From positions 186,001 through 250,000 of IMG/VR virus record IMGVR_UViG_3300028394_002328: DNA of 64,000 nt. One strand, written 5' to 3'. A model generated the notes under the pieces. That model did no database searches. It had not been told where the DNA came from and saw only the letters and a program-made list of their open reading frames with translations. Positions within the stretch are counted from its first letter, which is position 1. Every line of letters starts with the position of its first letter. The DNA comes from a virus. A program made the translations under genes and the position numbers. This document shows positions 7,150 through 41,950 of the stretch, piece by piece.

Positions 7150-8013
7150 ATGTCACAGCGTTATACTGGCGGAATACTTTCAGCAGCATTAACTGGTTTG
7201 AATTCGCCAGTTACCACTGTTGAGTATTTGGTTGTCGCTGGTGGTGGCGGGGGTGGACGTGAAACTAATACTTCGGGTGTCGGTGGCGGTGGTGGTGCGG
7301 GTGGTTTACTAACTGCAACAGGGTTTTCTATAACAGTTGGAACTTCTTACACCGTTACGATTGGTGCTGGCGGTGCAGGGCTAAATACTTCGACAGGTGC
7401 AGTTGGAAACAACGGCTCTAATTCTGTTTTTGGTTCTATTACCGCAATTGCTGGTGGTGGCGGTGGAGGAACGACTTTACAAGCGGGTAATACTGGCGGT
7501 TCAGGTGGTGGTGGATCAATTTTTGGCGGTGGAGGTGCGGCTGGAACGGCTGGACAAGGTAATGCTGGCGGAACACACAACACAACTTATAACTCTGCTG
7601 GTGGTGGTGGTGGCGCAGGTTCAGTAGGCGGTAATGCTGGCGCTTATGGTGGTGGCTCTGGTGGGACAGGATTAAGTTCATCCATATCTGGCACACAAGT
7701 TCAGTACGCTGGCGGCGGCGGCGGCGCTACTACTTTAACAAACGCTTCTTTGGGTGGTGGTGGCGGGGGTGGTAATGGTGCGCTCTACTCAGCATCATCG
7801 TTCGGTGGTGGTGGTTTAGCCAATACAGGTGGTGGTGGCGGTGGGGGTTCAAATGGCCCTGCACCATCAGGCTCAGGAGGCTCTGGCATAGTCATCATCC
7901 GTTACCCATCATATCTAGCCTCGGCAACATCAACGACTGGAAGCCCACAAACATACATAGATGGCAGTTGGCGAGTGTATGTATGGGTAAGTAGTGGTAC
8001 AATAACTTTTTAA
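7150..8013 (+). CDS. Glycine-rich tail adhesin
   Basis: 287 residues. After a short N-terminus it carries one glycine-rich module opening with VEYLVVAGGGGGG and closing with GSGIVIIRYP, then a short beta tail ending SSGTITF. Such modules are known from phage receptor-binding adhesins, where polyglycine helices pack in a bundle and exposed loops bind the host. The closing motif, the VYVWVSSGTITF end and several DNA stretches recur in the neighbouring genes, which would favour recombination. Confidence 0.75.
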   Translation: MSQRYTGGILSAALTGLNSPVTTVEYLVVAGGGGGGRETNTSGVGGGGGAGGLLTATGFSITVGTSYTVTIGAGGAGLNTSTGAVGNNGSNSVFGSITAIAGGGGGGTTLQAGNTGGSGGGGSIFGGGGAAGTAGQGNAGGTHNTTYNSAGGGGGAGSVGGNAGAYGGGSGGTGLSSSISGTQVQYAGGGGGATTLTNASLGGGGGGGNGALYSASSFGGGGLANTGGGGGGGSNGPAPSGSGGSGIVIIRYPSYLASATSTTGSPQTYIDGSWRVYVWVSSGTITF

Positions 8014-8023
8014 GAATATAACA

Positions 8024-10084
8024 ATGGCACAAGGATTATTCACTCTCAGACAGCAAGTACAGGGCATAGTTCAAAAGGCTTGGATTGCGCCCGCAGGCAC
8101 TTCTGCTGGTGTGTTCAATGGTACTAGCCAGTATTTGACTGTTCCTTATAGTTCAGCGTTTAACTTTGGGACTGGTGATTTTACTATTGAGGGCTGGATT
8201 AACCTAAGTTCTTTAAGTGTAAATTACTATGTTCTTGCTGGAACTTGGACTACTGGAACTTCAGACGAGTGGCTAATACAAATTCAAAACAATAATACTA
8301 TTAGATTTTTAACAACCGCTGGAACAAGTTTTTATTCGGCTACTATAACAACTGGAGTGTGGTATCATATTGCAGGTGTTAGAAGCGGGTCAACAATAAC
8401 ACTGTATGTGAATGGTGCAAGCGTTGGCAGTTATACTAATGCAAATAGTATAGGATCGGTTAGCAAGACTGTTTACATTGGTGCACAAGAAACAGCAATT
8501 TGGTATGTGAATGGTTACATTAGTAACTTCCGTATCGTAAAAGGTACCGCACTTTATACGTCTAATTTTGCAATTCCATCAGCCCCACTGAGAAATATAA
8601 CAGGCACTTCGTTACTAACTCTACAAAACGCTACAATTGTTGATAATAGTAGTAACGCATCCACAATTACAAACGTTGGGTCTGCGACCACTTCAACTAT
8701 ATCGCCAACGGCAATCCCAGTTAATGGACTCTCGCCCCCAGCAGTAGACTACCTTGTAGTTGCTGGTGGTGGAGGTGCGTCACAAGGTGGCGGTGGTGCA
8801 GGAGGATTACTTCAAGGATCTATACCAGTTACGACTGGTTCTGCTCTCACAGTAACAGTTGGTGGTGGTGGCGGTGCTTATACACAAGGACAAAATTCAG
8901 TTTTTTCAAGCATCGTAGCCATTGGCGGCGGGGCAGCGGCTAGTGGTACAGGTGGCTCTGGAGGTGGCGGGAATAATTCAACAGGACAACAGGGTACGTT
9001 CGGTCAAGGCAATACTGGTGGAGCAGGTAGCGCAACAGCAAGTCCGTATGCTGGTGGGGGTGGAGGAGGTGCTGGAACAGTTGGATTAAACGCAATTTCA
9101 ACAGTCGCGGGAAATGGTGGTGCAGGAATTGCGTCTGCTATTTCTGGAACTATTACAACTTATGCTGGTGGAGGTGGAGGAGGTGGGCCGACTAATGGTA
9201 CAGGTGGTGTAGGTGGAGGTGGCAATGGTGATGCAGATGGTACAGTAAACAGAGGAGGAGGTGGCGGCGGCGGATACGCAGGAGGTCCAAAATCAGGTGG
9301 CTCCGGTATTGTCATCCTAAGTTACCCTGATATATACGCTGGAGCAGCCGCAACTACTGGTAGCCCAACAGTCAGCACCAGCGGGTCGGGGAGTTTATTG
9401 CCGGGAAGCACATCAAGTTGGATCTACTACGCGGCTCAATCCGGGTTTGCTTTTGGCACTGGTGATTTTACGATTGAGTTTTGGACTAATTTTTATAGTA
9501 CGACCAGCGGCGCTAGTGGAACGAGTTATCTTTTAGATTTCCGTGGCGCTAGTAATCCGGCTAATTCTTCACTTGGTATTTTTCAAAACAGCGGTGGACT
9601 GCAATTATTTACGCAATCAGGACTTAATCCTAATTACGGAACGCCATCAATTAACACTTGGTTAAACATAGCGGTATCTAGGGTTAGCGGAACATTGTAT
9701 TGGTTTGTAAACGGAAGTCTTGTTAGTTCCGGAGCAGACACCACTAATTACACCGTTGGCTCAACTGGCCCGTCTTTTATGGGGTCGAGTTATTATAACA
9801 ACTACGGCTTGCAAGGTTACATGAGTAATATTCGTGTAATAAAAGGCACTGGATTATACACCTCTAATTATACTGCAACCACAACGCCTTATACTGCTGT
9901 TACAAATACGCAATTGCTTTTGAATACGGTTTCCGGCGGTTATTTAGCAGATGGGTCTACAAACTCTTACGCCGCATCAGTAGCAGGAACTGTGGCATGG
10001 AATCAACTCTCACCATTCGCAACTGGTTTAGGATACAAGAACCGTGTGTACACATACACGGGTAGCGGTTCAATAACCTTCTAA
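8024..10084 (+). CDS. Tail adhesin with LamG, glycine-rich and LamG domains
   Basis: 686 residues. A LamG/concanavalin-like domain (about 25-225) shows FNGTSQYLTV, GTGDFTIEGW, WYHIAGVRSG and ISNFRIVKGTALY. A glycine-rich module follows (about 240-440), opening VDYLVVAGGGG and closing GSGIVILSYP. A second LamG domain (about 470-650) has GTGDFTIEFW and MSNIRVIKGTGLY. The C-terminus YTGSGSITF is shared with sister genes. LamG domains usually bind glycans, so surface polysaccharide binding is inferred. Confidence 0.78.
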   Translation: MAQGLFTLRQQVQGIVQKAWIAPAGTSAGVFNGTSQYLTVPYSSAFNFGTGDFTIEGWINLSSLSVNYYVLAGTWTTGTSDEWLIQIQNNNTIRFLTTAGTSFYSATITTGVWYHIAGVRSGSTITLYVNGASVGSYTNANSIGSVSKTVYIGAQETAIWYVNGYISNFRIVKGTALYTSNFAIPSAPLRNITGTSLLTLQNATIVDNSSNASTITNVGSATTSTISPTAIPVNGLSPPAVDYLVVAGGGGASQGGGGAGGLLQGSIPVTTGSALTVTVGGGGGAYTQGQNSVFSSIVAIGGGAAASGTGGSGGGGNNSTGQQGTFGQGNTGGAGSATASPYAGGGGGGAGTVGLNAISTVAGNGGAGIASAISGTITTYAGGGGGGGPTNGTGGVGGGGNGDADGTVNRGGGGGGGYAGGPKSGGSGIVILSYPDIYAGAAATTGSPTVSTSGSGSLLPGSTSSWIYYAAQSGFAFGTGDFTIEFWTNFYSTTSGASGTSYLLDFRGASNPANSSLGIFQNSGGLQLFTQSGLNPNYGTPSINTWLNIAVSRVSGTLYWFVNGSLVSSGADTTNYTVGSTGPSFMGSSYYNNYGLQGYMSNIRVIKGTGLYTSNYTATTTPYTAVTNTQLLLNTVSGGYLADGSTNSYAASVAGTVAWNQLSPFATGLGYKNRVYTYTGSGSITF

Positions 10085-24725: not shown

Positions 24726-24743
24726 GTCATCTTGTGTTATCAT
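24715..24743 (+). promoter_or_regulatory. Possible sigma70 promoter
   Basis: TTGATC at 24715, 17 bases, TATCAT at 24738. Transcription would begin at about the ATG of the next gene, giving a leaderless or near-leaderless mRNA, which lowers confidence. Confidence 0.35.
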
Positions 24744-24749
24744 ACACAG

Positions 24750-25343
24750 ATGCTTAAATTACTTTTTCCATTACCCAAAAAATTGACCGTTGCTTGTAGC
24801 GGCGGTGTAGATAGTATGGCTGTATTAGATTTCTTGCGTAGAAATCATGAGGTTACTGTGGCCTTTTATCATCATAGTACACCTAACAGCGATGCTGCAT
24901 ATCAATTTGTAGCCAATTATTGTAGTGAACATGATTTACCACTATTCTTTGGAAAACTAAACGAATCCAAACCCAAAGAATTAAGTCAAGAAGAGTTTTG
25001 GAGAAATAAGCGTTACGATTTTCTTCGTGGATTTGACACGGTAATTACAGCACATCATTTAGATGATTGTGTAGAAACATATATTTGGTCATCATTACAC
25101 GGAAAAGCAAAACTCCCACATAGATATGTCCGTGGAAATGTTATGCGACCATTTTTAACTACTCCAAAAACAGAATTCATTTCATGGTGTGAACGACACC
25201 ATGTTAAATGGAGTGAGGATATCAGCAATAAAGACACTAATTATACTAGAAATTATATCAGACACGAACTAATGCCACATGCATTAAAGGTTAATCCTGG
25301 ATTAAGAACTACTGTTAAAAAAATTGTTGAGCGAGGTGGTTAA
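24750..25343 (+). CDS. tilS: TilS-like PP-loop ATPase
   Basis: 197 residues. ACSGGVDSMAVL is the SGGxDS PP-loop that adenylates tRNA, HHLDDCVETY the second conserved motif, and SNKDTNYTRNYIRHELMP the TilS signature. TilS makes lysidine at C34 of tRNA-Ile(CAU). The C-terminal TilS domains of the full bacterial enzyme are absent, so only the catalytic half is present. A TTG at 24732 falls inside the putative -10 box, so ATG 24750 was chosen. It lies near queuosine-type genes but is not QueC: the YTRNxIRHELMP motif is specific to TilS. Confidence 0.8.
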   Translation: MLKLLFPLPKKLTVACSGGVDSMAVLDFLRRNHEVTVAFYHHSTPNSDAAYQFVANYCSEHDLPLFFGKLNESKPKELSQEEFWRNKRYDFLRGFDTVITAHHLDDCVETYIWSSLHGKAKLPHRYVRGNVMRPFLTTPKTEFISWCERHHVKWSEDISNKDTNYTRNYIRHELMPHALKVNPGLRTTVKKIVERGG

Positions 25344-26322: not shown

Positions 26323-29033
26323 GTTATGTAGACGCTATACATGACCGCAATGGCGACAAGATATTTGTCGTAGAACGGACTACCCAAGGTACAAGGACTT
26401 TTAAAGAGTACCCTGCTAACTATACATTTTATTACAGCGATCCTAAGGGCAAATATCGTAGTCTTTATGGCGATCCTGTAAACAAATTCAGTACAAGAAA
26501 ACGTGCTGAGTTTGAAAAGGAGCGTAGGATTCATTCAGGTAAGAAATTATTTGAAAGTGATATCAATGTAGTCTTTCGCTGCCTTTCAGAGAATTATCTG
26601 AAAATTGATCCTCCTAAGTTGCATACATGCTTCTTTGACATTGAGGTTGATTTTGATCCTGAAAAGGGCTTTAGTCCCACTAGTGATCCATTCAACCCTG
26701 TAACAGCAATTAGTATGTATTTGGATTGGCTAGACCAATTGTTTACTCTATGTATTGCTCCTAAACATATGTCCGAAGAAACGGCACAAGAAATTGTAGG
26801 AGAATTTGATAACACTATCCTTTTTAAAAGTGAAAAGGAAATGTTTGATATGTTCTTTCAGTTGATTGACAATGCCGATGTTCTAACTGGTTGGAACTCA
26901 GAAGGATACGACATACCCTACATGATCAATCGTGTTACTAGGGTAATGAGTAAAGATGATACCCGTAAGTTTTGTTTGATGGGTCAGATGCCTAAGCCAA
27001 GAACTTATGAAAGGTTTGGAAAAGAAGAGCAAACATATGACTTAGTTGGTCGTATTCACATGGACTATCTACAGTTGTACAAAAAATACAATTATGAAAG
27101 TCGCCATAGCTATAAACTAGACTCTATCGGTGAGATGGAAGTTGGTGAAAATAAAACACAATATGAAGGTACTCTTGACCAATTGTATAACAAGGACTTT
27201 AAAAAGTTCCTTGAGTATAACAGGCAGGATACTATGTTGTTGGTTAAGATTCACAACAAGTTGAAATTTCTAGATTTAGCAAATGCTCTAGCACATGAGA
27301 ACACAGTGCTATTGCCAACAGTGATGGGTTCAGTTGCAATGATTGAAATGGCAATCATGAACGAAGCCCATGAGCGTGGTTTAGTAGTCCCTGATAAAAA
27401 ACGAAAGGAAGGAAGTAATGATGAACAACAAGCGGCAGGTGCCTATGTTGCTACGCCCAAAAGGGGCATTCACGAATGGGTCGGAGCAGTTGACATTAAC
27501 AGTCTTTACCCGTCAGCAATCCGCGCTCTTAACATGGCCCCTGAGACCATTGTCGGTCAGGTCAGGCAATCACTCACTAACCAATACATGCAAGACAAAG
27601 GCAAAAGGTTAGCCAACGAAAAGAAACGTGCTAAAGAAGATGACGATGCCGTAACTGGTAGTATTCTATGGGAAGGCTTGTTTGGCTCACTAGAATATAC
27701 TGCTATTATGAACCAAGAACGCGGCACAATGCTTACACTAGACTATGAAGATGGTCGTAGTGAAGAAATGAGTGCGGCAGAGATTTGGAAATTAATCTTT
27801 GATAGTCACAAGCCTTGGATACTTAGTGCTAATGGTACTATATTTAAGTATGACCAAGAAGGTGTGATTCCTGGTCTACTATCACGTTGGTATAGTGATC
27901 GTAAGGTCATGCAAAAGAAACTTAGAGAATCTACTACTGACGAAGATAAAGAGTATTGGGATAAGCGTCAATTAGTGCGTAAGATTTTGCTTAACTCAGC
28001 ATACGGCGCACTATTAAACGAGCATTGTCGTTTCTATGACAAGCGTATCGGTCAAAGTGTTACTCTAAGCGGTAGACAGATTGTTAAGCATATGATGAGT
28101 ACCATCAATGAAACAATCACTGGTGAATATAACCACGATGGTTCTGCGATTGTCTATGGAGATACTGACAGTTGCTACTTTAGTGCTTATGCTAGTTTGC
28201 AACCACAAATAAAAGGTGGTGAATTAGAGTGGAATAAAGAAACTTGTATTGGCTTGTATGATGGTATTGCCGATCAGGCTAACGATTCATTTCCTGCTTT
28301 CATGGAACGAGCATTTCATGCTCCAAGAAAGAATGGAGAAATCATCAAGGCTGGCCGTGAATTGATTGGTGATCGTACACTGTTTATCACAAAGAAACGT
28401 TATGCTATCAATATCTTTGACAAAGAAGGTAAGCGCAAAGATAAAGACGGTAAAATGGGTGACGTTAAGGCTATGGGCCTTGATTTGAAACGAGCGGATA
28501 CTCCTAAATACATTCAAGACTTTTTGATGGACGTCTTGTGTATGGTATTGCAAGAGGGTAAAAGCCGCGAAGAAGTCATTGAAAAAATCAAAGAGTTTAA
28601 GAAAACACTAAGTGAACAGGACAGTTGGACTAAAGGATCTCCTAAAGGTGTAAACAAACTTACAACGTATGGAGACTTGGAAGCTAACAGTAAAACTGGT
28701 CGTGCTAATATGCCAGGACATGTTAGAGCGGCATTGAACTATAACTACTTACGCAGAGTTAATGGTGACAATTATTCTATGAAAATCGTTGATGGAATGA
28801 AGGTTATCGTTTGTAAACTAAAACAAAATGCGTTAGGGTTCACTAGTATTGCATATCCAACTGATGAATTAAGGTTACCTGCTTGGTTCTGTGAACTTCC
28901 ATTTGATGATAACGAAATGGAACGTACATTAGTAGATGAAAAAATAGAAAATTTGCTAGGTGTATTAGGTTGGGATTTGCGTAGTAATACTAATACTAAT
29001 TCAACATTTGACCAATTGTTTACATTTGGGTAA
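26319..29033 (+). CDS. DNA polymerase, family B (T4 gp43-like)
   Basis: 904 residues, the T4 gp43 size. The 3'-5' exonuclease shows FDIEVDF (near 107), WNSEGYDIPYMINR and YNRQDTMLL. The polymerase shows DINSLYPSAIRALNM (motif A, near 391), RKILLNSAYGALLN (motif B) and YGDTDSCYF (motif C, near 612), with KKRYAINI later. The protein ends STFDQLFTFG, the position and form of the clamp-binding peptide of T4-type polymerases. The sliding clamp gene follows. The first ATG overlaps the stop of the DsbA-like gene. Confidence 0.95.
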   Translation: MSYVDAIHDRNGDKIFVVERTTQGTRTFKEYPANYTFYYSDPKGKYRSLYGDPVNKFSTRKRAEFEKERRIHSGKKLFESDINVVFRCLSENYLKIDPPKLHTCFFDIEVDFDPEKGFSPTSDPFNPVTAISMYLDWLDQLFTLCIAPKHMSEETAQEIVGEFDNTILFKSEKEMFDMFFQLIDNADVLTGWNSEGYDIPYMINRVTRVMSKDDTRKFCLMGQMPKPRTYERFGKEEQTYDLVGRIHMDYLQLYKKYNYESRHSYKLDSIGEMEVGENKTQYEGTLDQLYNKDFKKFLEYNRQDTMLLVKIHNKLKFLDLANALAHENTVLLPTVMGSVAMIEMAIMNEAHERGLVVPDKKRKEGSNDEQQAAGAYVATPKRGIHEWVGAVDINSLYPSAIRALNMAPETIVGQVRQSLTNQYMQDKGKRLANEKKRAKEDDDAVTGSILWEGLFGSLEYTAIMNQERGTMLTLDYEDGRSEEMSAAEIWKLIFDSHKPWILSANGTIFKYDQEGVIPGLLSRWYSDRKVMQKKLRESTTDEDKEYWDKRQLVRKILLNSAYGALLNEHCRFYDKRIGQSVTLSGRQIVKHMMSTINETITGEYNHDGSAIVYGDTDSCYFSAYASLQPQIKGGELEWNKETCIGLYDGIADQANDSFPAFMERAFHAPRKNGEIIKAGRELIGDRTLFITKKRYAINIFDKEGKRKDKDGKMGDVKAMGLDLKRADTPKYIQDFLMDVLCMVLQEGKSREEVIEKIKEFKKTLSEQDSWTKGSPKGVNKLTTYGDLEANSKTGRANMPGHVRAALNYNYLRRVNGDNYSMKIVDGMKVIVCKLKQNALGFTSIAYPTDELRLPAWFCELPFDDNEMERTLVDEKIENLLGVLGWDLRSNTNTNSTFDQLFTFG

Positions 29034-29844: not shown

Positions 29845-30173
29845 TTAGAATTAACCACTCAGGTGGTGTGCCGTTTTTTCAAAATGATACGTCATACAAT
29901 TTACCATCTTCAACTGGTGCTGTTCAATGGAACGGTAATAGTAAAAAATTTCAAGTAAGCAGCGGTGGTAGTTGGATAGATATTGAAAATTCAATAAATT
30001 TAAATGCTGACCATGACTACCTGATGGTTATGCGGTGGGCTAGAGAAAAAATGCATGAAGAACACGAACTAGAAAGGCTGGCAAAAGAAAATACTACTCT
30101 TAAAGATTTAGTTGACCAACTCAACTACACTAAAGAGCAGATTAAAGTAGTTACAACGCTCTTGAAAGCATAA
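29841..30173 (+). CDS. Hypothetical protein with beta N-domain and coiled coil, 110 aa
   Basis: The N-terminal 55 residues hold short beta strands (STGAVQWNGNSKKFQV, GGSWIDI), like the tip of a tail or fibre protein. Residues 65-110 form a heptad-like coiled coil (EEHELERLAKENTTLKDLVD). It overlaps the clamp stop and the DpdA start (TAATG), so it is made with replication proteins. Function unknown. Confidence 0.7.
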   Translation: MIRINHSGGVPFFQNDTSYNLPSSTGAVQWNGNSKKFQVSSGGSWIDIENSINLNADHDYLMVMRWAREKMHEEHELERLAKENTTLKDLVDQLNYTKEQIKVVTTLLKA

Positions 30174-31720
30174 TGGAACAAGTAAATCTATCAACATCAC
30201 ACAATCCCGATTGGGCACTATTCTTACCAGCAGTTAGTAGTTTTTATATTGCTGGCTTAGGTAAGCAACGCAATGGCGAACAGTATTTTGACTCAGCAAG
30301 AATTCCTAAAGGTTTTGGTGGTGATGTAGAAAAACTTAATTTTCTTAATAGCAAAGAAGGATTGTACTATTACAAGTGGGGCCTGTATAGTGCAGGTCAT
30401 GCTAACTTAGATACTACTAAAGTTGACTTCAACGAAAGTATTATCCGTGATCGTGAAGCAGGTACTTTCATGCTAGGTGACAGTGGGGGCTTTCAAATTC
30501 TAAAAGGTCAATGGCCTGCTGATTGGAAAGATCCTAACTGTCCCAAAGCAATGATTAAGCGTAAGGCAGTCCTTAATTGGATGGACACATACATGGACTA
30601 TGGTATGTGTCTTGATATTCCTTCGCAATCTCTACGCACATTTCACTTAAAAGATCCAAAGACAGGTAAGTCATTGCATGGCATCAGTACTATTCAAGAG
30701 GCTATTGATGCTACACATATCAATAACAAATATTTTATTGAGAACCGTAATGGTAACTGTAAGTTCTTAAATGTTCTACAGGGTCTTACTCATACTCAAA
30801 GTGATCAGTGGTATGAAGAGATGAAAAAATATTGTGATCCAAATATCTATCCCGAGAATCATTTCAATGGTTGGGCATTTGGGGGACAAAATAAAATTGA
30901 TATTCATCTTACTCTCAAACGTATCGTAGGCATTATTCATGACGGTCTTCTCCAAGAAGGTAAACATGATTTGATTCACTGTTTGGGTACAAGTATCTTG
31001 GAATATGCTGTATTGTTTACAGATATTCAACGAGCGGTTCGCAAATATCATAATCCAAAACTACAGATTACTTTTGACTGTGCCAGCCCATTCTTCAGTG
31101 CGGCTAAAGGACTAGCATATTTCAATACCAGTATTGAGCATAATAAAAAATGGTCCTATAGCATGGAAAAAACCGCAGAGAAAAAATCCTATGCTAATGA
31201 TACTCGCAAATTCCGTGATGCGGTATTACAAGATGGTATCCATAAAGTGTTTACAGATAGTCCTGTAACTGATAGAATGCTGTTAAAGGATCTGTGCTAT
31301 AGGGGTCAAGGATTCATTGGTCAACATGGTAAAGAAACAAAAACTAGTTGGGATACTCTAAGTTATACTCTACTTCAATCTCATAATGTATACCAGCATA
31401 TCTATGCTGTACAAGAGGCTAATCGCAGATATGAACAGGGTGTGATTCCAAAGATGATTATGAATGAAACTTTTGAGCGTATTCGTTTTAGTGAAATTGT
31501 AGATGAAATTTTCTCTCTCAACGACCGCCAAAAGAGTTTGGACTTAATTGATTATCATAGTAGATTTTGGATGCAGATGCAAAGTGGTAGTCAAGGGTTT
31601 AGTGGTAAGAAAACTGTAAACGCTAGAACTATGTTTGATCAATTGTTTACTACTGAAGAACCCAAAGAAGAAGTAATTGAAGATAGTGATGACTTAATGC
31701 TTGAGGTACTAGGAGATTAA
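30173..31720 (+). CDS. dpdA: DpdA-like DNA guanine transglycosylase with clamp-binding motif
   Basis: 515 residues. The TGT-fold signatures are LGDSGGFQIL (near 101-110, substrate-binding Asp), WAFGGQ (near 230) and TFDCASPFFSA (near 300-310, nucleophile Asp). DpdA enzymes swap guanine in DNA for a 7-deazaguanine, using a tRNA-guanine-transglycosylase chemistry. A typical TGT C-x-C-x2-C zinc site is not seen. Near the C-terminus, MFDQLFTTEE (about 487-496) repeats the FDQLFT of the polymerase C-terminus, followed by an acidic tail. FolE, QueD and QueE lie within 6 kb downstream. Confidence 0.85.
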   Translation: MEQVNLSTSHNPDWALFLPAVSSFYIAGLGKQRNGEQYFDSARIPKGFGGDVEKLNFLNSKEGLYYYKWGLYSAGHANLDTTKVDFNESIIRDREAGTFMLGDSGGFQILKGQWPADWKDPNCPKAMIKRKAVLNWMDTYMDYGMCLDIPSQSLRTFHLKDPKTGKSLHGISTIQEAIDATHINNKYFIENRNGNCKFLNVLQGLTHTQSDQWYEEMKKYCDPNIYPENHFNGWAFGGQNKIDIHLTLKRIVGIIHDGLLQEGKHDLIHCLGTSILEYAVLFTDIQRAVRKYHNPKLQITFDCASPFFSAAKGLAYFNTSIEHNKKWSYSMEKTAEKKSYANDTRKFRDAVLQDGIHKVFTDSPVTDRMLLKDLCYRGQGFIGQHGKETKTSWDTLSYTLLQSHNVYQHIYAVQEANRRYEQGVIPKMIMNETFERIRFSEIVDEIFSLNDRQKSLDLIDYHSRFWMQMQSGSQGFSGKKTVNARTMFDQLFTTEEPKEEVIEDSDDLMLEVLGD

Positions 31721-32385: not shown

Positions 32386-32595
32386 ATGGCTAAAATTAAA
32401 TTTCAACCTAATCCCCGTGTTCATGCAATTTTCGATGACCTTGACAAGTACCGCGAATTTTGTGTAGATTATGGATTTAAATTTGATGAAGCAGACCTCT
32501 ACAGCACTAAAAGCTACGTCTATAGGCAATTCACTAAACATCTTTCAGGTAAAACTGTAAAGAGTATATGGGATATTGATACTAAGGCTAATTAA
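32386..32595 (+). CDS. Small hypothetical protein, 69 aa
   Basis: ATG 32386 follows AAAGGAA; an in-frame upstream ATG at 32242 lies inside the previous gene and lacks a ribosome site. Charged with aromatic residues (FDDLDKYREFCVDYGFKFDEADLY). The stop overlaps the glycosyltransferase start (TAATG). No family recognised. Confidence 0.65.
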   Translation: MAKIKFQPNPRVHAIFDDLDKYREFCVDYGFKFDEADLYSTKSYVYRQFTKHLSGKTVKSIWDIDTKAN

Positions 32596-33770
32596 TGCGT
32601 AAACTATTTTACATGGGTCTTGAGCCGTATAAGGCCCGATACACTCTACAACTACAAGAATGGAATGAACGTGTATTTAAGCGGCGTAAGATTAACTATG
32701 TAATCGTACCCGGCGAAACACTAACTACTGACCAATCTATTGTTACTGGTCAGGTCCTAGATGCACATGGTCGCACATACTTTGGTATGAGCCAATTAAT
32801 GAATCTAGTTAAGTTGATGAAGGCAGGTGAATGCAGTAATGAAGATGTTATATACTTTGAGGACATGTTTCAACCAGGAATCGAGAGTCTACCCTATATC
32901 CTCAATCAAATCAGTCCTGAGCATTGCCCTCGCATTTTTGTTCGCTGTCTTGCTCAGTCTATTGATCCAGATGATTTTGTTCATGTCTGGGGTATGTCAG
33001 AGTGGATGGGCCATTATGAAAAAATGGTTGACTCGTTCGTAGATGGTGTACTTGCTACTAACGAAGAAATGGTAATGCATATGAAGGTAGCAGGTTGGAG
33101 GGCTCCAATCTATAATATTTCAGGGCTTGCATTTGGTCGTGATGAAGTACAAAGCCGTGTTGAGCAAATTAAAAACTTCAATGATCGGCGTATGCGTGTA
33201 GTGTTCAGTTCACGTTGGGATCAGGAAAAACAACCTGATTTTTATATGGATCTGATTGAAGCATATCATGCCTCACATCCAAATCATAATACCGAATTTG
33301 TTATCTGTAGCGGTGGTAGTCTTAAGTCAAATAACCAATCTTACATGAGTAGGACTCGCAAATTTCAAGAAAAAGGTTTGCTAACGGTTTATGAAAACTT
33401 AGAAAAAAATGCTTATTATAATATCCTTAATGATAGTAGGGTTGTCTTTAATTGCGCCCTTCAAGATTGGGTTTCCAACACAGTCAGTGAAGCAGATAGT
33501 CTTGGGTGTAATGTTTTATTCCCTGCTTATCGGTCTTTCCCTGAGACTTTTTCTAATGACCATACAAGACTTTATGTACCTTGGTCAATAGAAGATGCAC
33601 TAGCAAAACTAGAAAAATTGTTGGCTAAACCTCACGTTAATATTGGTAAGATTAGTAAATATAATGATGGTACTATTGACCGTATTTGTGACATTCTACA
33701 AGATAAAGGTGATAGTATGTTGAGAATGTCTACTGACTATCGTAAATATCTCAGAGAAAATAAGTATTGA
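32595..33770 (+). CDS. GT-B fold glycosyltransferase
   Basis: 391 residues. The C-terminal half matches GT-B enzymes: MRVVFSSRWDQEKQPDFYMDLI (start of the nucleotide-sugar domain), FVICSGG, then DWVSNTVSEADSLGCNVLFP, where the E-x-x-x-x-G region normally contacts the sugar nucleotide. Its place between dpdA and folE makes DNA-base glycosylation conceivable, but glycosylation of another acceptor is equally possible. Confidence 0.7.
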   Translation: MRKLFYMGLEPYKARYTLQLQEWNERVFKRRKINYVIVPGETLTTDQSIVTGQVLDAHGRTYFGMSQLMNLVKLMKAGECSNEDVIYFEDMFQPGIESLPYILNQISPEHCPRIFVRCLAQSIDPDDFVHVWGMSEWMGHYEKMVDSFVDGVLATNEEMVMHMKVAGWRAPIYNISGLAFGRDEVQSRVEQIKNFNDRRMRVVFSSRWDQEKQPDFYMDLIEAYHASHPNHNTEFVICSGGSLKSNNQSYMSRTRKFQEKGLLTVYENLEKNAYYNILNDSRVVFNCALQDWVSNTVSEADSLGCNVLFPAYRSFPETFSNDHTRLYVPWSIEDALAKLEKLLAKPHVNIGKISKYNDGTIDRICDILQDKGDSMLRMSTDYRKYLRENKY

Positions 33771-33776: not shown

Positions 33777-33837
33777 CTAATGTCACACAAAGGTGACAAA
33801 ATGTCAAAACAAAACCATCACAACGGAGGGTTATCAA

Positions 33838-34512
33838 ATGTCGTACAATAAAACCAAAACAGATCCTGAACTAGGACTATTAGTACATGAATATCTAGTA
33901 AAGATGGGAGTTGAAACTCCTGTTATTTCAAACGGTATTGATCGTAAAGAAAAGATTGATAAAATTGAGAATCATTTTCGTGAGATTATGGGGATTCTCG
34001 GCCTAGACTTAACTGATGATAGTCTAATAGAAACACCTAACCGTGTTGCTAAAATGTATGTAAATGAAATTTTTTGGGGACTCGATTTTGAAGCATTCCC
34101 AAAATGTACTACAGTAGACAATAAAATGCACTATAATGAAATGGTGGTTGAACGTAATATCAACGTTCAAAGTAACTGCGAACATCATTTTGTAATCATT
34201 GATGGATTAGCAACTGTAGCATATGTACCAAAAAGAAAGGTATTAGGTCTAAGTAAAATTAATCGCATTGTAGAATACTTTAGCAAGCGCCCACAAATTC
34301 AAGAACGGTTGACTGAACAGATTTTCTATGCACTACAATTTATCCTTGAAACAAATGATGTTGCGGTTATGATTGATGCCCAACATTATTGTGTCAAAAG
34401 CCGAGGTGTAGAAGATACAGGTAGTAGTACTGTTACTACTAGGCTTGGCGGTGGATTCAAATCTGATCCTGAAGTTCGTAATGAATTTTATCAGATTGCA
34501 AGGATGCGTTAA
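33838..34512 (+). CDS. folE: GTP cyclohydrolase I
   Basis: 224 residues. Family motifs are ETPNRVAKMYVNEIFWGL, SNCEHHFVIIDG with the zinc Cys and catalytic His, VLGLSKINRIVEYFSKRPQ and AQHYCVKSRGV with the second zinc Cys. It converts GTP to 7,8-dihydroneopterin triphosphate, the first step toward 7-deazaguanines. ATG 33838 follows AACGGAGGG; a GTG at 33793 in frame lies in an inverted repeat and was not chosen. A 16-codon frame (33801-33851) overlaps the start and could couple translation. Confidence 0.93.
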   Translation: MSYNKTKTDPELGLLVHEYLVKMGVETPVISNGIDRKEKIDKIENHFREIMGILGLDLTDDSLIETPNRVAKMYVNEIFWGLDFEAFPKCTTVDNKMHYNEMVVERNINVQSNCEHHFVIIDGLATVAYVPKRKVLGLSKINRIVEYFSKRPQIQERLTEQIFYALQFILETNDVAVMIDAQHYCVKSRGVEDTGSSTVTTRLGGGFKSDPEVRNEFYQIARMR

Positions 34513-34880: not shown

Positions 34881-35084
34881 ATGAAAGAATTTGTGCTTAA
34901 AGATATGAATCAATACACAGTTAGAGTTAAGAAAAATAGGTGTTTGAGACCACAAGAGTTGACTCATATTGAGTTTATCCAAGAAAGTAAAAACGATAAA
35001 GGTGAAGTAGTAGATACTTCAACCTATCAATTTTTCTTAACTGACAGTGAAATTAAAACTCTAGTAGCCAATTTGGTTGAATAA
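34881..35084 (+). CDS. Small hypothetical protein, 67 aa
   Basis: Beta-rich N-terminus (FVLKDMNQYTVRVKK) and a short helical end TDSEIKTLVANLVE. Lies between folE and queD in the same operon. Function unknown. Confidence 0.65.
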   Translation: MKEFVLKDMNQYTVRVKKNRCLRPQELTHIEFIQESKNDKGEVVDTSTYQFFLTDSEIKTLVANLVE

Positions 35085-35085
35085 T

Positions 35086-35631
35086 ATGGCTAAGTTTTAT
35101 TCAACCAAAACTTATGGTAATGACAGAGGATTAAGTTGTTGTTTTAGACAATGGCGAGCTAAACACAGTCATTGTAGTACATTACATGGATACAGTATTG
35201 GTATTAAATTAGTATTTGAATGCGAAACATTGGATGACAAAAACTGGTGTATGGACTTTGGTGGACTAAAAGAATTCAAAGCATGGGCTGATTATATGTT
35301 TGACCATACACTAATTATTGCTGAAGATGATCCTCATCTAGAATTTTTCAAGCAAATGGCATTGATTGACACAAACTGGACTTTGCCCGAAACCGGTCCA
35401 GATGAAATGCGAGTTGATAGAAATAATTTCGAGCCATACCAAAGAGGCTCTCTATGTGATTTACGCATTGTAGAAGGTGTAGGTTGTGAGATGTTTGCTA
35501 AAATGGCATATGACAAAATGGCTGAGTTGTTAGACGGTGGTAATATGCGATATCCCATTAACCCTAATGTAAGAATTAAAAGCGCCGAGGTTTTCGAGCA
35601 TGGAGCCAACTCAGCTACCTACGAGGGTTAA
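35086..35631 (+). CDS. queD: 6-carboxytetrahydropterin synthase
   Basis: 181 residues from ATG 35086; a TTG at 35077 overlaps the previous gene. CFRQWRAKHSHCSTLHGYSI carries the QueD zinc/catalytic features (Cys and H-x-H), MDFGGLKEFKAWADYMFDHTLII is the D-F-G-x-L-K and DH motif, and a late Glu (SAEVFEHGANSATY) completes the T-fold. It turns dihydroneopterin triphosphate into CPH4. An insert around 90-130 makes it longer than the usual 120 residues. Confidence 0.88.
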   Translation: MAKFYSTKTYGNDRGLSCCFRQWRAKHSHCSTLHGYSIGIKLVFECETLDDKNWCMDFGGLKEFKAWADYMFDHTLIIAEDDPHLEFFKQMALIDTNWTLPETGPDEMRVDRNNFEPYQRGSLCDLRIVEGVGCEMFAKMAYDKMAELLDGGNMRYPINPNVRIKSAEVFEHGANSATYEG

Positions 35632-35800: not shown

Positions 35801-35989
35801 ATGAGTGATGTTAGAAATCGCATGGCAGAATTAATGGAACCTATTGACAAGCAAATTATGATGTGCGATAATAGGGAAGATTTGCTAATGTTAGCCTGTG
35901 CTATGTTGACTTCAGTTAAAACGATATTTGACCAAGAGTTAGGTAAAAAAGCCCGTATCCAATTATTTAAAGATTATATAGATGAGTAA
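35801..35989 (+). CDS. Small hypothetical protein, 62 aa
   Basis: Helical; DNREDLLMLACAMLTSVKTIFDQELGKKARIQLFKDYI. The stop lies 8 bases inside queE, implying coupled translation. Function unknown. Confidence 0.65.
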   Translation: MSDVRNRMAELMEPIDKQIMMCDNREDLLMLACAMLTSVKTIFDQELGKKARIQLFKDYIDE

Positions 35990-36833
35990 TATTAAGATAA
36001 GCGAACTGTTCTATTCCATACAAGGAGAAGGTCGTTATATGGGGGTGCCTAGTGTGTTCCTTCGCACATTTGGCTGTAATTTTACCTGTGATGGTTTTGG
36101 TATGCCACGCGGAGGAACAAGTATTGAACGAATTCAAGTTGGATTGTTACATGAAGGAAATCCTTATAAAAATTATAAAGATTTGCCCCTTGTAAGTACA
36201 GGTTGTGACAGTTATGCAAGTTGGGATCCAGCATTTAAAGATTTGAGTCCTGTACTTACTACTGATGCTATCGTTAATCGCATTATGGAAATTCTTCCAT
36301 ATAATGAATGGCGTGATGAACATTTGGTTATTACAGGTGGAGAACCATTGCTAGGTTGGCAAAAACAATATCCTGATCTATTAAATCATCTTAAAATGCA
36401 TGGTTTAAAAGAAATTACTTTTGAAACAAATGGTACTCAAAAACTAACTTCAGAATTTAAATCAGCATTAAAAGAATGGAGCAAATGGTACAATAGAGAA
36501 ATTACATTTAGTGTTAGTGCCAAACTGCCTTGTAGCGGTGAAATATGGGAAGATGCTATTAAACCTAAGGTAGTATGTGAATATGAACAATATGGCACTT
36601 CCTATCTAAAGTTTGTTATTGCTACAGAACAAGATTTTGCTGATGCCAAAAATGCTATTGCTGAATTTCGTGGTGCAGGATTTAAAGGACATGTATATCT
36701 AATGCCAATTGGTGGTGTGGAAAGTATTTACTCTATGAATAATAAAAATGTAGCCATGCTAGCAATGAAGCATGGACTAAGATACAGCGATAGACTCCAG
36801 GTACCTCTGTTCAAAAACGAATGGGGTACTTGA
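35982..36833 (+). CDS. queE: 7-carboxy-7-deazaguanine synthase, QueE-like radical SAM enzyme
   Basis: 283 residues. SELFYSIQGEGRYMGVPSVF is the QueE opening, and VITGGEPLLGWQ and ITFETNGTQ are radical SAM/QueE motifs. The cluster motif is unusual: FGCNFTC gives the first two cysteines, but the third is probably in STGCDSYASWDP about 40 residues later, after an insert, instead of two residues on. QueE converts CPH4 to 7-carboxy-7-deazaguanine (CDG), the last clearly encoded synthetic step here. Confidence 0.85.
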   Translation: MSNIKISELFYSIQGEGRYMGVPSVFLRTFGCNFTCDGFGMPRGGTSIERIQVGLLHEGNPYKNYKDLPLVSTGCDSYASWDPAFKDLSPVLTTDAIVNRIMEILPYNEWRDEHLVITGGEPLLGWQKQYPDLLNHLKMHGLKEITFETNGTQKLTSEFKSALKEWSKWYNREITFSVSAKLPCSGEIWEDAIKPKVVCEYEQYGTSYLKFVIATEQDFADAKNAIAEFRGAGFKGHVYLMPIGGVESIYSMNNKNVAMLAMKHGLRYSDRLQVPLFKNEWGT

Positions 36834-38173
36834 TGAGGACGTATGATAAACGAATTGGTTTTTTAGTTAGTTTCCAAACACTAGTACCTCATGGTGGTAT
36901 AGGACAATTCGCTAAAAGTTTCTGCGAATTGATGGATAGTCATAATATTAAAGTTGATATTATTACTGACAAAGAACCAAAAAATAATGAGTTTGTAAAC
37001 TCATTAAAAGCAAATATTGTTTATCCTACTGAGTCATTCACATACACAGATCATAGTAATATCTTTATGTATGGTGATACCTTTTGCTATGAACGAATGG
37101 CTAACTTTCGCAACGCAATAATTAAAGCCACAACCAATAACCTATATGACGCATTAATTTGTAACACATATGAAACTATACAAGTTGCTAGTACAATGGG
37201 TCTTGAAGATGTAATTCAAATCATTGCCTATACTCATTTAGAAAGTCAAATCTTTAAGGATACTAAAAATCCTTTCTTACATAGTACCAATGAAATGATG
37301 CGTAATCAATTAGAAATGAATGGATTGTATGTAGGAACACAAAGCAAATTCAATCAAATTTCAATGAGCAATAGCGCATGGCATCTACCTATTCCAATTA
37401 CTGAGCGTGGGTTACTAGAAGAACATCATAAACCACGTGAAGGTGTATTGTTTATTGGTCGTTGGGAAGAAGGTAAAAATCCCGAAACATATTTAGAGTT
37501 GATTGAAAAAACTAAGTTACCTGCGAGGGTAATGACTAATGCCAATGGTGCAAAAAAGTTTGAAGAACGCTTTAAAAAGATAGGCGTAACTGATTATAAA
37601 ATTGCTGTTAGTATTATTGGTAAAGAAAAAGTAGATTTCATTACTAGTTGTAGAGTAGCATTCAATCCTAGTACAGTAGAAAGTTATGGTATGGCTTTCT
37701 ATGAGCAACATATTCAATTACCTACAGTTGTTTTAGAAAATCAACGTTGGACTAATAACTTTGATAAAAATCATTTCTTTACTGTAAATAAAAAGAACAT
37801 GGTTGAAACTGTATTAGATTTATACAACAATGTTCCTGATGCTAAAACATGGTATGCTAATAATATATTAGAAGTATATCAGAGTAAAGAGAATGATGTA
37901 TTTCACAAATGGAATGAATGTTTTAACAAGTTTACTAGTAAACAATCAAACAGTAATACCGCAAAAATATGTGAAGAAACTACTGTAAAGTATATTGATT
38001 TTACTAATAGTTTAGGTCGTAGATTATTGTGTATTGACGATATTAAATCTGTATTGACAAACAAACATAAATTCCGTATAATATACACAGATAATGATAC
38101 ATACTTATCTAAAGATCCAACATTTGAACCAGTAGAGGAAGTAACAGGCTTAAGCCTATTTGAAGGATTATGA
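36833..38173 (+). CDS. GT-B (GT4-like) glycosyltransferase
   Basis: 446 residues from ATG 36833, which overlaps the queE stop (TGATG). N-terminal VPHGGIGQFAKSFCELM is the donor-domain glycine loop. EGVLFIGRWEEGKNPETYLELI opens the second Rossmann domain, and FNPSTVESYGMAFYEQHI is the E-x7-E region of GT4 enzymes. About 85 C-terminal residues are an extra Lys-rich extension ending in LSLFEGL. The acceptor is not known. Confidence 0.75.
   Translation: MRTYDKRIGFLVSFQTLVPHGGIGQFAKSFCELMDSHNIKVDIITDKEPKNNEFVNSLKANIVYPTESFTYTDHSNIFMYGDTFCYERMANFRNAIIKATTNNLYDALICNTYETIQVASTMGLEDVIQIIAYTHLESQIFKDTKNPFLHSTNEMMRNQLEMNGLYVGTQSKFNQISMSNSAWHLPIPITERGLLEEHHKPREGVLFIGRWEEGKNPETYLELIEKTKLPARVMTNANGAKKFEERFKKIGVTDYKIAVSIIGKEKVDFITSCRVAFNPSTVESYGMAFYEQHIQLPTVVLENQRWTNNFDKNHFFTVNKKNMVETVLDLYNNVPDAKTWYANNILEVYQSKENDVFHKWNECFNKFTSKQSNSNTAKICEETTVKYIDFTNSLGRRLLCIDDIKSVLTNKHKFRIIYTDNDTYLSKDPTFEPVEEVTGLSLFEGL
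38054..38082 (+). promoter_or_regulatory. Sigma70-type promoter inside the glycosyltransferase gene
   Basis: TTGACA, 17 bases, TATAAT, a consensus match within coding sequence, 88 bases upstream of the epimerase ATG. Confidence 0.55.
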
Positions 38174-38988
38174 AAAAAGTATTAATAACAGGTAGTTCAG
38201 GATACATTGGCAGTCATCTTACTAATCTATTAAAAGATGAATATGAAGTACATGGACTTGATCGTGTTGAACCACAAGTAGCACCACATACATTTTATCA
38301 TTGTGACATTAACCGTCAGTTTAACTTAGATGAAGAGTTTGATGCTGTAGTACATTTAGCCGCTCTAGTTAATGTAGGAGAAAGTGAAAAGCAACCTATT
38401 CAATACTACATTACTAACCTAAATGGTACTATGAATGTAGTTAATAAGATAAAAACTAAAAACTTTATTTTTTCTAGTACCGGTGCTGCACAAGACTGTA
38501 TAAGTGCATATGGTATTAGTAAGCGAGCGGCAGAAGATGTAGTAAGGTCGTATTCTGAAATGGTTAGTATGGACTATACTATCTTTAGATTTTATAATGT
38601 CATTGGTAGCACAGTAGTTAATCCTACTAACCCAGATGGGTTATTTTACAATTTAATTAAAGCTCGGGCGACTGGTCAATTTACTATACATGGTAGTGAT
38701 TATAATACTAGTGATGGCACTTGTGTTAGAGATTATGTTCATGTAGATGAGATTTGTAATTCTATTAAATTGGCAATTGAACGGCCAGCAAATCAAACAG
38801 AAGCATTAGGTCATGGTAAAGGATATACTGTTAAAGAAATGGTAACTATCTTTGAAAGTATTAATAATTGTAAAATCAATGTGAAGACAGGCCCTCGTAG
38901 AAAGGGTGATATTGAACATTATGTACTTAAGAACCCATCATCTTACATGCATGAGTTGTATAATATTGGTCAACTACTAAAGATTTAA
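38170..38988 (+). CDS. NAD-dependent epimerase/dehydratase
   Basis: 272 residues, extended short-chain dehydrogenase. ITGSSGYIGSHLTNLL is the N-terminal G-x2-G-x2-G NAD loop, VVHLAALVNVGES a standard strand, and SAYGISKRAAEDVV contains the YxxxK catalytic pair, with STGAAQD supplying the Ser/Thr. RFYNVIG and GTCVRDYVHVDE match UDP-glucose 4-epimerase-like enzymes. It probably makes a nucleotide sugar for the nearby glycosyltransferases. ATG overlaps the upstream stop. Confidence 0.85.
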   Translation: MKKVLITGSSGYIGSHLTNLLKDEYEVHGLDRVEPQVAPHTFYHCDINRQFNLDEEFDAVVHLAALVNVGESEKQPIQYYITNLNGTMNVVNKIKTKNFIFSSTGAAQDCISAYGISKRAAEDVVRSYSEMVSMDYTIFRFYNVIGSTVVNPTNPDGLFYNLIKARATGQFTIHGSDYNTSDGTCVRDYVHVDEICNSIKLAIERPANQTEALGHGKGYTVKEMVTIFESINNCKINVKTGPRRKGDIEHYVLKNPSSYMHELYNIGQLLKI

Positions 38989-40349: not shown

Positions 40350-41950
40350 TAATGCTTCAATAATAGAGTGCCTAATACACCAGGGTCATTTGCCGTTAAA
40401 TCAGGCTCCCCGGGGGCAACAATAACATTCCACTTCATGGATTTATTATTTTTACCCTTAGTATTCCATTCATCATAACTTAGAATACTATTTTTGCTTA
40501 TACCATACTTATCGGCGAGGCGCTGTTTTAGTTCAGGTAATTCATCAGGTATTACTTGCCATTGACCTTCAGGTCCTTTAACTAAATTCTTTTTAGAATC
40601 CTTAACTAATAGGTCATAAAACAAACTACTAGGAACGATACGACTATTCTTAGTTGTGTCTAAGTTTGGATCATTTCTCTTAATTTGTTTTTCTTGGCTA
40701 GTACTTGCGCCTTCACTCCAATTAATAATAAAGTTGCTAGGCTTACTAGCCATTGCAGCCTTTGCTACTTTAGTATAAGCATAAAACTTAACATCAGGTA
40801 ATGAGTTTGCAAGGTCAAATGCCATGTCCATATACTCAGGGCTAAAGAAGTCTCCAGCATCATGCCAACGAATACTTACTGAATAACCACCTTTTTTACC
40901 CTTTGCTTCTTCTTTACTAATTTCTTGTGTTAGTTGTTCAAAGAACTCATCAGGATGATTTAGTAGATATGTAAGTATACGACCATCGCTTAACCACGGA
41001 CCAGCGAATTGAACTTTACCGCCCTTCATAGCAAAGCAATCTACTTTACAACTACCAGCACCTGGACATGTATTAACAACAATTAACTCATTTGTATTTT
41101 CATCTAGTGCGATACCAACTAGAGCAGCAAATCCAATGTTAAAAAATTGTTCTTGTGCTCCATCACTATGCTTCATCTTCTCATTCTTTTTAAGAAGTGA
41201 TTTTGGTCTTTCCTTTAACCCTGCTTTAATAGCGTCAGTATTATATTTTTTACCGTCAGCATTATAGTATCCAACTACTGAACTACGATGGACATAAGGT
41301 AAATTATATTTGTCTGTTTTCTTCTTTTCTTGATTACGAATACGGTCTAGATAATCTGTTAACTCTTGACCTTTTAATTCACGGGTGCTAGCAGGTAGTG
41401 CTGTTGCTTCCGCCACACCTTGTTCGTGTAGTTTTTTGTTAGGATCTCTAACATCAGGAAAATCCCATTTATTGGTTTGTGAAAATTCTTCTCTAGCTTC
41501 TCTTCTAGACATGCCATATATTTTTTCAAATTCTCGATCAGATAATTCAGGATCATCAAGGTCCATGTCTAACTCAGCCATCTTGCTTTCCGACACATTA
41601 ACTACGGGTTTATTTCCGTAAACTTTTCTATCTTTACCTATTATTCTTCCGGTTTCGCTTCTACTACCAATGTGCTTACTGGCTAAACTTTGACCAGGTT
41701 TTACTCTTACACGATTTGGCGGTAATTGTGTAATCTTTCCACCTTTATTTAAAAAGTCTGCTACAGCATCATCGGTTTCTTTACTAAAATCAGATTTCAT
41801 CTTGAAATCTTCATCTACTTCCTGTTCGGGTTCAGGTTCCTCACCTTGTGCGGATTTAGCAATAAATTGCTGAGGGGTCATTATTTGGATACCTTCAGGA
41901 GCACCTGGTAATTCTGGTTCAACTCCCTCAAATAATTCTTTAATATTCAT
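40349..41950 (-). CDS. GP88-like protein, candidate packaged protein
   Basis: 533 residues. The leader MNIKELFEGVE gives LFE with a predicted cut before G. A charged, disordered region (1-170) ends at HEQGVAEA (near 175), the same site type as in the polyprotein at 17780. The C-terminal 350 residues include NTCPGAGSCKVDCFAMKGGK, a four-part Cys cluster (C-x5-C-x3-C) matching the phage gene 88 family, and IRWHDAGDFFSPEYMDM. The cysteines may bind a metal or Fe-S cluster. It is transcribed opposite to its neighbours with the downstream fusion gene. Confidence 0.65.
   Translation of the reverse strand: MNIKELFEGVEPELPGAPEGIQIMTPQQFIAKSAQGEEPEPEQEVDEDFKMKSDFSKETDDAVADFLNKGGKITQLPPNRVRVKPGQSLASKHIGSRSETGRIIGKDRKVYGNKPVVNVSESKMAELDMDLDDPELSDREFEKIYGMSRREAREEFSQTNKWDFPDVRDPNKKLHEQGVAEATALPASTRELKGQELTDYLDRIRNQEKKKTDKYNLPYVHRSSVVGYYNADGKKYNTDAIKAGLKERPKSLLKKNEKMKHSDGAQEQFFNIGFAALVGIALDENTNELIVVNTCPGAGSCKVDCFAMKGGKVQFAGPWLSDGRILTYLLNHPDEFFEQLTQEISKEEAKGKKGGYSVSIRWHDAGDFFSPEYMDMAFDLANSLPDVKFYAYTKVAKAAMASKPSNFIINWSEGASTSQEKQIKRNDPNLDTTKNSRIVPSSLFYDLLVKDSKKNLVKGPEGQWQVIPDELPELKQRLADKYGISKNSILSYDEWNTKGKNNKSMKWNVIVAPGEPDLTANDPGVLGTLLLKH

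Follow-up and report, generated by a model that had tools for sequence, protein, structure and literature searches.

Enzymes that modify DNA are known to be recruited to a replication clamp, as is the case for the eukaryotic DNMT1, which is brought to PCNA by a PIP-type motif. Among phages, the alpha-glucosyltransferase of T4 is said to bind gp45, a finding credited to Sommer in 2004.

The same T4 enzyme pulls down gp45, and the share of glucosylation is set mainly by promoter strength and expression rather than by clamp affinity, so that an enzyme can bind the clamp without its level of modification being governed by this contact (PMC13216743). The T4 polymerase, gp55 and gp33 bind gp45 by C-terminal peptides of hydrophobic and acidic residues; these can be exchanged among the three proteins and are also functional when internal (PMC2988020), and the peptide of RB69 gp43 has been seen on gp45 (PDB 1b8h; PMC3012046). 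Late transcription in T4 uses the same clamp surface (PMC2988020). As for base exchange, the DpdA and DpdA2 enzymes of phages such as 9g and nt-1 put 7-deazaguanine into DNA (PMC6884629). Our search of the literature, whose coverage of subscription papers was poor, returned no description of a link between DpdA and a sliding clamp, nor of how DpdA finds its targets or when in infection it works.

The locus described here lies in a stretch of 64,000 nucleotides, i.e., the window, which corresponds to positions 186001-250000 of the 335,035-base phage record IMGVR_UViG_3300028394_002328; its features are collected in Table 1. The reading that we favor, with a probability of about 0.82, is that the DpdA of this phage would dock on the phage clamp through an FxxLF motif, in the same pocket as the polymerase peptide, as suggested by sequence comparison and structure models.

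Table 1. Features of the polymerase-clamp-DpdA locus and of the modification gene cluster (window positions), with the ends of a zinc-ribbon-like protein in three other phage records.
Feature	Position	Strand	Basis or remark
Family B DNA polymerase, 904 aa	26319..29033	+	Pfam DNA_pol_B 6.5e-43; PHROG 262 DNA polymerase 4.3e-198
Polymerase C-terminal clamp peptide STFDQLFTFG	29001..29030 (FDQLF core 29007-29021)	+	Position and form as in the gp43 clamp-binding C-terminus (PMC2988020, PMC3012046)
Predicted sliding clamp, PCNA/gp45 fold, 243 aa	29113..29844	+	AlphaFold2 and Foldseek
Small ORF between clamp and DpdA, 110 aa	29841..30173	+	No family by Pfam or PHROG
DpdA-like 7-deazaguanine DNA transglycosylase, 515 aa	30173..31720	+	Foldseek, hhalign, motifs, neighboring genes
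DSGGFQ motif, DpdA residues 103-108	30479..30496	+	Invariant in alignment A4
FDC motif, putative catalytic Asp302	31073..31081	+	D302 invariant in A4; FDC paired by hhalign with the DpdA2 ISYDS motif
SGSQGFSGKK segment preceding FDQLF, DpdA residues 471-480	31583..31612	+	Low model confidence at 473-483
Candidate clamp-binding motif FDQLF, DpdA residues 488-492	31634..31648	+	Conservation and proteome rank
Acidic IEDSDD after the motif, DpdA residues 502-507	31676..31693	+	51 to 59 of 60 close relatives per position
FolE (GTP cyclohydrolase I)	33793..34512	+	Pfam 5.4e-61
QueD-like	35077..35631	+	Pfam PTPS 9.8e-15; PHROG 2389
QueE-like radical SAM enzyme	35982..36833	+	PHROG 2076 1.8e-51
Glycosyltransferase-like protein after QueE, 450 aa, candidate second clamp client	36821..38173	+	Weak Pfam GT group 1 match
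LSLFEGL, candidate clamp peptide ending the glycosyltransferase	38150..38170	+	Conservation of LF
Zinc-ribbon-like protein, end GLDDFFV	ACP17 record 88633-89394
Zinc-ribbon-like protein, end GLEDFFG	Moby record 40582-41343
Zinc-ribbon-like protein, end GLETFFA	ZZ01 record 7844-8554

The DpdA-like ORF has no sequence match in Pfam, PHROG, PADLOC or PDB, and the accepted DpdA2 proteins of nt-1 and ZZ01 likewise lack a Pfam match. Its AlphaFold model is of low confidence (mean pLDDT 57.6), and the best 32 Foldseek matches of this low-confidence model in PDB are all tRNA-guanine transglycosylases (TGTs; E 5.5e-5 to 6e-3, TM about 0.3-0.45), while a profile-profile alignment with DpdA2 by hhalign gives a probability of 94.7 and an E value of 6e-8. 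The DSGGFQ motif, which we take to be the TGT substrate motif, is invariant as DSGG-Q in DpdA2 too. Together with the FDC motif and with the presence of FolE, QueD and QueE within 6 kb of the gene, these matches identify the protein, by comparison and modeling, as a divergent DpdA with a putative role in exchanging guanine for 7-deazaguanine in DNA. It shares with the described enzymes of 9g and nt-1 (PMC6884629) the TGT fold and genes that adjoin FolE, QueD and QueE, but it forms a separate divergent branch, similar to DpdA2 at the profile level only, and it has about 34% identity with a protein of PA5oct that is annotated as hypothetical.

The ORF that separates the polymerase and DpdA genes, in which the sequence-only reading had seen a clamp gene, has no Pfam match, no PDB sequence match and no named family, and it is the fold that bears this assignment out. 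Its AlphaFold2 model (pLDDT 88.7) finds sliding clamps in all of its best 50 PDB matches by Foldseek, nearly all of them PCNA (E 3e-10, TM about 0.7), and its matches in a viral structure library include annotated phage sliding clamps. The protein is, accordingly to its predicted fold, a PCNA/gp45-type clamp, which would form a trimeric ring on DNA. A homologue with 34% identity to it is PA5oct gp170 (L101 10912-11658), which is annotated as a structural protein from mass spectrometry and, because of this homology, is probably a clamp as well. The small ORF that follows the clamp gene overlaps both it and the DpdA gene by a few bases each.

The C-terminus of the polymerase reads ...NTNSTFDQLFTFG, and the C-terminal region of DpdA reads ...NARTMFDQLFTTEEPKEEVIEDSDDLMLEVLGD. 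The two carry the same peptide, as had been noticed from the sequence: the polymerase ends in STFDQLFTFG, and MFDQLF stands in the tail of DpdA, with F488 lying 28 residues from the C-terminus. The accompanying claim, that T4-type polymerases bind the clamp by a C-terminal peptide of this form, agrees with the literature, where it is an established clamp-binding epitope in T4 and RB69 (PMC2988020, PMC3012046). At the DNA level, TTTGACCAATTGTTTAC at 29007-29023 in the polymerase gene and TTTGATCAATTGTTTAC at 31634-31650 in the DpdA gene are alike in 16 of 17 bases, so the near identity described earlier stands, with its first coordinate moved from 29005 to 29007. A degenerate codon pattern for FDQLFT has exactly two matches in the window, i.e., these two genes (none in 100 shuffles), and exactly two in the whole record. 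Likewise, FDQLF is present in the polymerase and DpdA only, among the 374 ORFs of the phage, with 0.03 expected by residue shuffling, and no other tail in the proteome resembles the polymerase peptide as closely as that of DpdA (27 vs 18 for the next). The loose pattern F[DNES].[LMIF]F occurs instead 8 times in the proteome vs 9 expected, hence no more rarely than by chance, and for this reason the argument is built on the strict motif only, together with where it lies and how well it is conserved.

Conservation was examined in 80 IMG/VR loci with 79-100% identity, which yielded 60 distinct complete DpdAs. The motif F[DNE]x[LF]F is found in the last 80 residues of all 60, vs an average of 0.57 and a maximum of 4 in shuffled tails, and in none of them does it occur outside the tail; its absence from close relatives, named by the sequence-only reading as the outcome that would speak against it, was thus looked for and not seen. 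Columns F488, L491 and F492 are nearly invariant, positions 493-501 drift, Leu491 is spelled by six different codons, and the distance of the motif from the end of DpdA goes from 25 to 45 residues. The polymerases end in F[DNE]xLF followed by 1-3 residues in 58 of 58 distinct relatives, and in most relatives the pair reads FDDLF(S/T)FG in the polymerase and FDQLF(E/D) in DpdA. The 16 shared bases in the window phage would suit a recent gene conversion or recombination between the two genes, leaving two copies without selection; this explanation was rejected, and we give it next to no probability, because the likeness ends at the motif and because the relatives differ in DNA, often in residues (FDDLF vs FDQLF), and use six Leu codons. 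The identical FDQLFT with its near-identical DNA is, therefore, a local coincidence peculiar to the lineage of the window phage, and what the alignments indicate as conserved is the FxxLF core, F[D/N/E]x[L/F]F, at the protein level rather than through DNA copying.

In two relatives, L045 and L049, the tail has been remodeled: SLNNNF is found at the site of the ancestral motif, and a new copy, MFNELFQLGT, stands at the C-terminus. This lineage thus lost the ancestral copy and gained a new one. Another relative, L052, combines FDEFF with a terminal LDLFEFN.

The pairing recurs in more distant phages. In PA5oct (34% identity) the polymerase ends in ...HFDSLFGW and DpdA has ...SFNSLFDVD, and in Vibrio phage 2.275.O the two proteins read ...NNTDLFDW and ...NNNDLFGW, each at the exact C-terminus; both phages keep the order polymerase-clamp-DpdA, with the homology of the clamp confirmed. 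Regarding phages with T4-type clamps, whose DpdA homologues the earlier reading had singled out as worth checking, the motif of DpdA2 matches that of the phage's own polymerase in the T4-like phages X1 (polymerase SLESLFG, DpdA SLEELFG), ACP17 (SLDDLFE, TLDELFE), Moby, with Ps15 alike (SLEDLFGW, SLDDLFG), and BUCT-ZZ01 (TLDDFFS, SLDSFFD). These matched pairs are not all independent, as the DpdA2 examples have the terminal position in common. When every ORF tail of a proteome was scored by its likeness to the peptide of its own polymerase, with the polymerase itself not counted, the DpdA tail took first place in five phages (the window phage, X1, ACP17, Moby and 2.275.O) and fifth place in PA5oct. 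It came third in the relative G001 and also in ZZ01, where the SSB protein and the glycosyltransferase scored higher. That a five-residue motif should resemble another by chance might be expected from the frequency of the loose pattern (8 found, 9 expected), but the conservation in 60 of 60 relatives vs 0.57 expected, the ranks of DpdA in several proteomes and the matched pairs in several lineages make such an accident extremely improbable.

Weaker and negative cases are present too. The DpdA2 of KVP40 (L230 2998-4377) has a weaker internal copy, DLSAFFG(G), in an insertion, while its polymerase ends in TLESFFG, and L[DES]xFFG is matched by these two proteins only among 391 ORFs; the LSAFFG insertion is common to KVP40, F86 and 1.081.O, and nt-1 is without it. 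The motif was not found in the DpdA2 of nt-1, the most thoroughly studied DpdA2 and at first sight a counterexample, from a phage that has a T4-type clamp and makes dG+ with this enzyme (PMC6884629), so the motif is not obligatory. In pf16 it is degenerate (VTLDLMCA), and in Phosso, where the polymerase has TTFNDLFTF, the DpdA end is only a weak VEGLF, and the ORF preceding its DpdA is a candidate clamp by position only, which is why Phosso was left out of the supporting cases. A zinc-ribbon-like protein (253 aa in ACP17 and Moby) without a known link to the clamp also has a clamp-peptide-like end (Table 1); it may be a further protein that binds the clamp, or else it cautions that ends of this kind can come about for other reasons.

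Phages with bacterial-type clamps present a different ending. The DpdA of 9g (L243 3007-3960) ends in LQDLFDE, and its relatives (L316-L325) end in VQELF, IQELF, VMELF, AQELF, IQGLF, IMELF, QMELF, QQGLFV, EQRLF and RQRRLF, i.e., Q-x(x)-LF or a close variant, of general form x(x)LF, at the C-terminus. Bacterial clamp-binding peptides resemble these ends, and most of the 9g-type records have a beta-clamp gene within a few hundred bases of DpdA, but the LF ends could be structural instead. No such tail was found in the DpdAs of the actinobacteriophages Hedgerow and Nicole72.

The tail motif might, instead of binding the clamp, serve another partner or fold back to contact the rest of DpdA, perhaps where a TGT-type dimer would form; the resemblance to the polymerase end would then be a convergence on the common amphipathic FxxLF form. 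The blocks SGSQGxSGKK and IEDSDD near the motif are also conserved in the close relatives, so that clamp binding may not be the only function of the tail, and AlphaFold places a short low-confidence helix at residues 488-491; on the other hand, the motif changes position (28 residues from the end, at the exact C-terminus, or in an internal loop), and in L049 it disappeared and was acquired anew. Its form also varies with that of the polymerase in the same phage, being FF in ZZ01 and KVP40, LFG in X1 and in Moby, LFE in ACP17 and LF-x-W in 2.275.O. A fold-back contact would neither move nor track the polymerase, and we regard this alternative as improbable. The comparisons and models support the view that the DpdA motif is under selection to imitate the peptide of the polymerase.

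The proposed docking would work as follows. The C-terminal tail of DpdA, for which the poor model (mean pLDDT 57.6) does no more than suggest disorder or flexibility, would carry FxxLF as a short linear motif, which would enter the pocket of the clamp used by the C-terminal peptide of the polymerase. The clamp would then act as a tool belt for polymerase and DpdA, occupied by both simultaneously or in alternation, and once the polymerase passes or releases, the trimeric ring would carry DpdA along the newly made duplex, where it would swap guanine for the 7-deazaguanine made by FolE, QueD and QueE. Because DpdA and polymerase share their tag and the pairing is repeated in unrelated phages, the enzyme that swaps the base probably travels with the replication machinery; that the exchange occurs just behind the fork is plausible, and somewhat better than an even bet.

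A tether that is not for exchange behind the fork has to be weighed as well: DpdA would be on the clamp, and this would raise its local concentration or link it to clamp-activated late transcription or repair, with modification spread over all the duplex and hardly dependent on the tether. This would agree with T4 alpha-glucosyltransferase, which binds gp45 and yet has its glucosylation share decided by expression rather than affinity (PMC13216743), with nt-1, which modifies its DNA with a motif-less DpdA2 (PMC6884629), and with the use of the same clamp surface in T4 late transcription (PMC2988020). The conservation of the motif across very different phages argues, indirectly, that the tether has some effect on fitness, and we consider exchange uncoupled from the fork rather unlikely.

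Compared with the described systems, clamp docking of DpdA has in common with T4 alpha-glucosyltransferase that a phage base-modifying enzyme would be on the phage's own gp45/PCNA-type clamp, but the T4 enzyme transfers glucose to hmC whereas DpdA exchanges the base, and the DpdA site is a short motif that copies the polymerase end and is kept across several phage groups. With the C-termini of T4 gp43, gp55 and gp33, whose peptides can replace one another, it shares a short peptide of hydrophobic and acidic residues in a flexible tail; these proteins serve replication and late transcription, and the motif of the window DpdA, about 25 residues before the end, is not terminal. DNMT1 differs in methylating cytosine, in being eukaryotic and in not being homologous to DpdA. 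The T4 enzyme on gp45 is already known, while our search returned no such description for DpdA, whose binding to the clamp is very likely.

DpdA may not be the only modifying enzyme involved. The glycosyltransferase-like protein encoded after QueE has LF within its last seven residues in every one of 80 complete relatives, which represent 56 distinct tails, while its other residues drift, and because this end is kept in all 80 it may be a second modifying enzyme riding the clamp. Its ZZ01 homologue, which adjoins DpdA2, FolE, QueD and QueE, ends in SLEDFFND, next to TLDDFFS in the ZZ01 polymerase. A second glycosyltransferase-like ORF (32595-33770), with a homologue in the ZZ01 cluster, and a sugar-nucleotide epimerase (38170-38988) flank the FolE, QueD and QueE genes of the window. 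These flanking sugar genes hint at a glycosylated base, and a sugar-decorated 7-deazaguanine would be the natural guess for the product. QueC was not found in the record of the window phage, despite the presence of FolE, QueD, QueE and DpdA, nor in G001, PA5oct, ZZ01 or ACP17, and for this reason DpdA may insert the product of QueE or a compound made from that product. A PP-loop protein at 24732-25343 of the window might play a part here.

A broader proposal, which we hold tentatively and at slightly less than even odds, is that clamp tethering would be general for the DpdAs of phages with their own clamp, with the motif matched to that clamp, namely F/LxxLF or FF for PCNA/gp45-type clamps and a terminal Q-x(x)-LF for the bacterial-type clamps of 9g-like phages. 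In the family of the window phage, the glycosyltransferase would sit on the same clamp, and base exchange and sugar addition would form a replication-linked assembly line that leads to glycosylated 7-deazaguanine.

If the clamp tether is true, its motif would offer a simple means of finding other clamp-riding modification enzymes in phages, such as the glycosyltransferase of the window, and the exchange of 7-deazaguanine would be coupled to replication, so that protection of new phage DNA would follow its synthesis almost at once.
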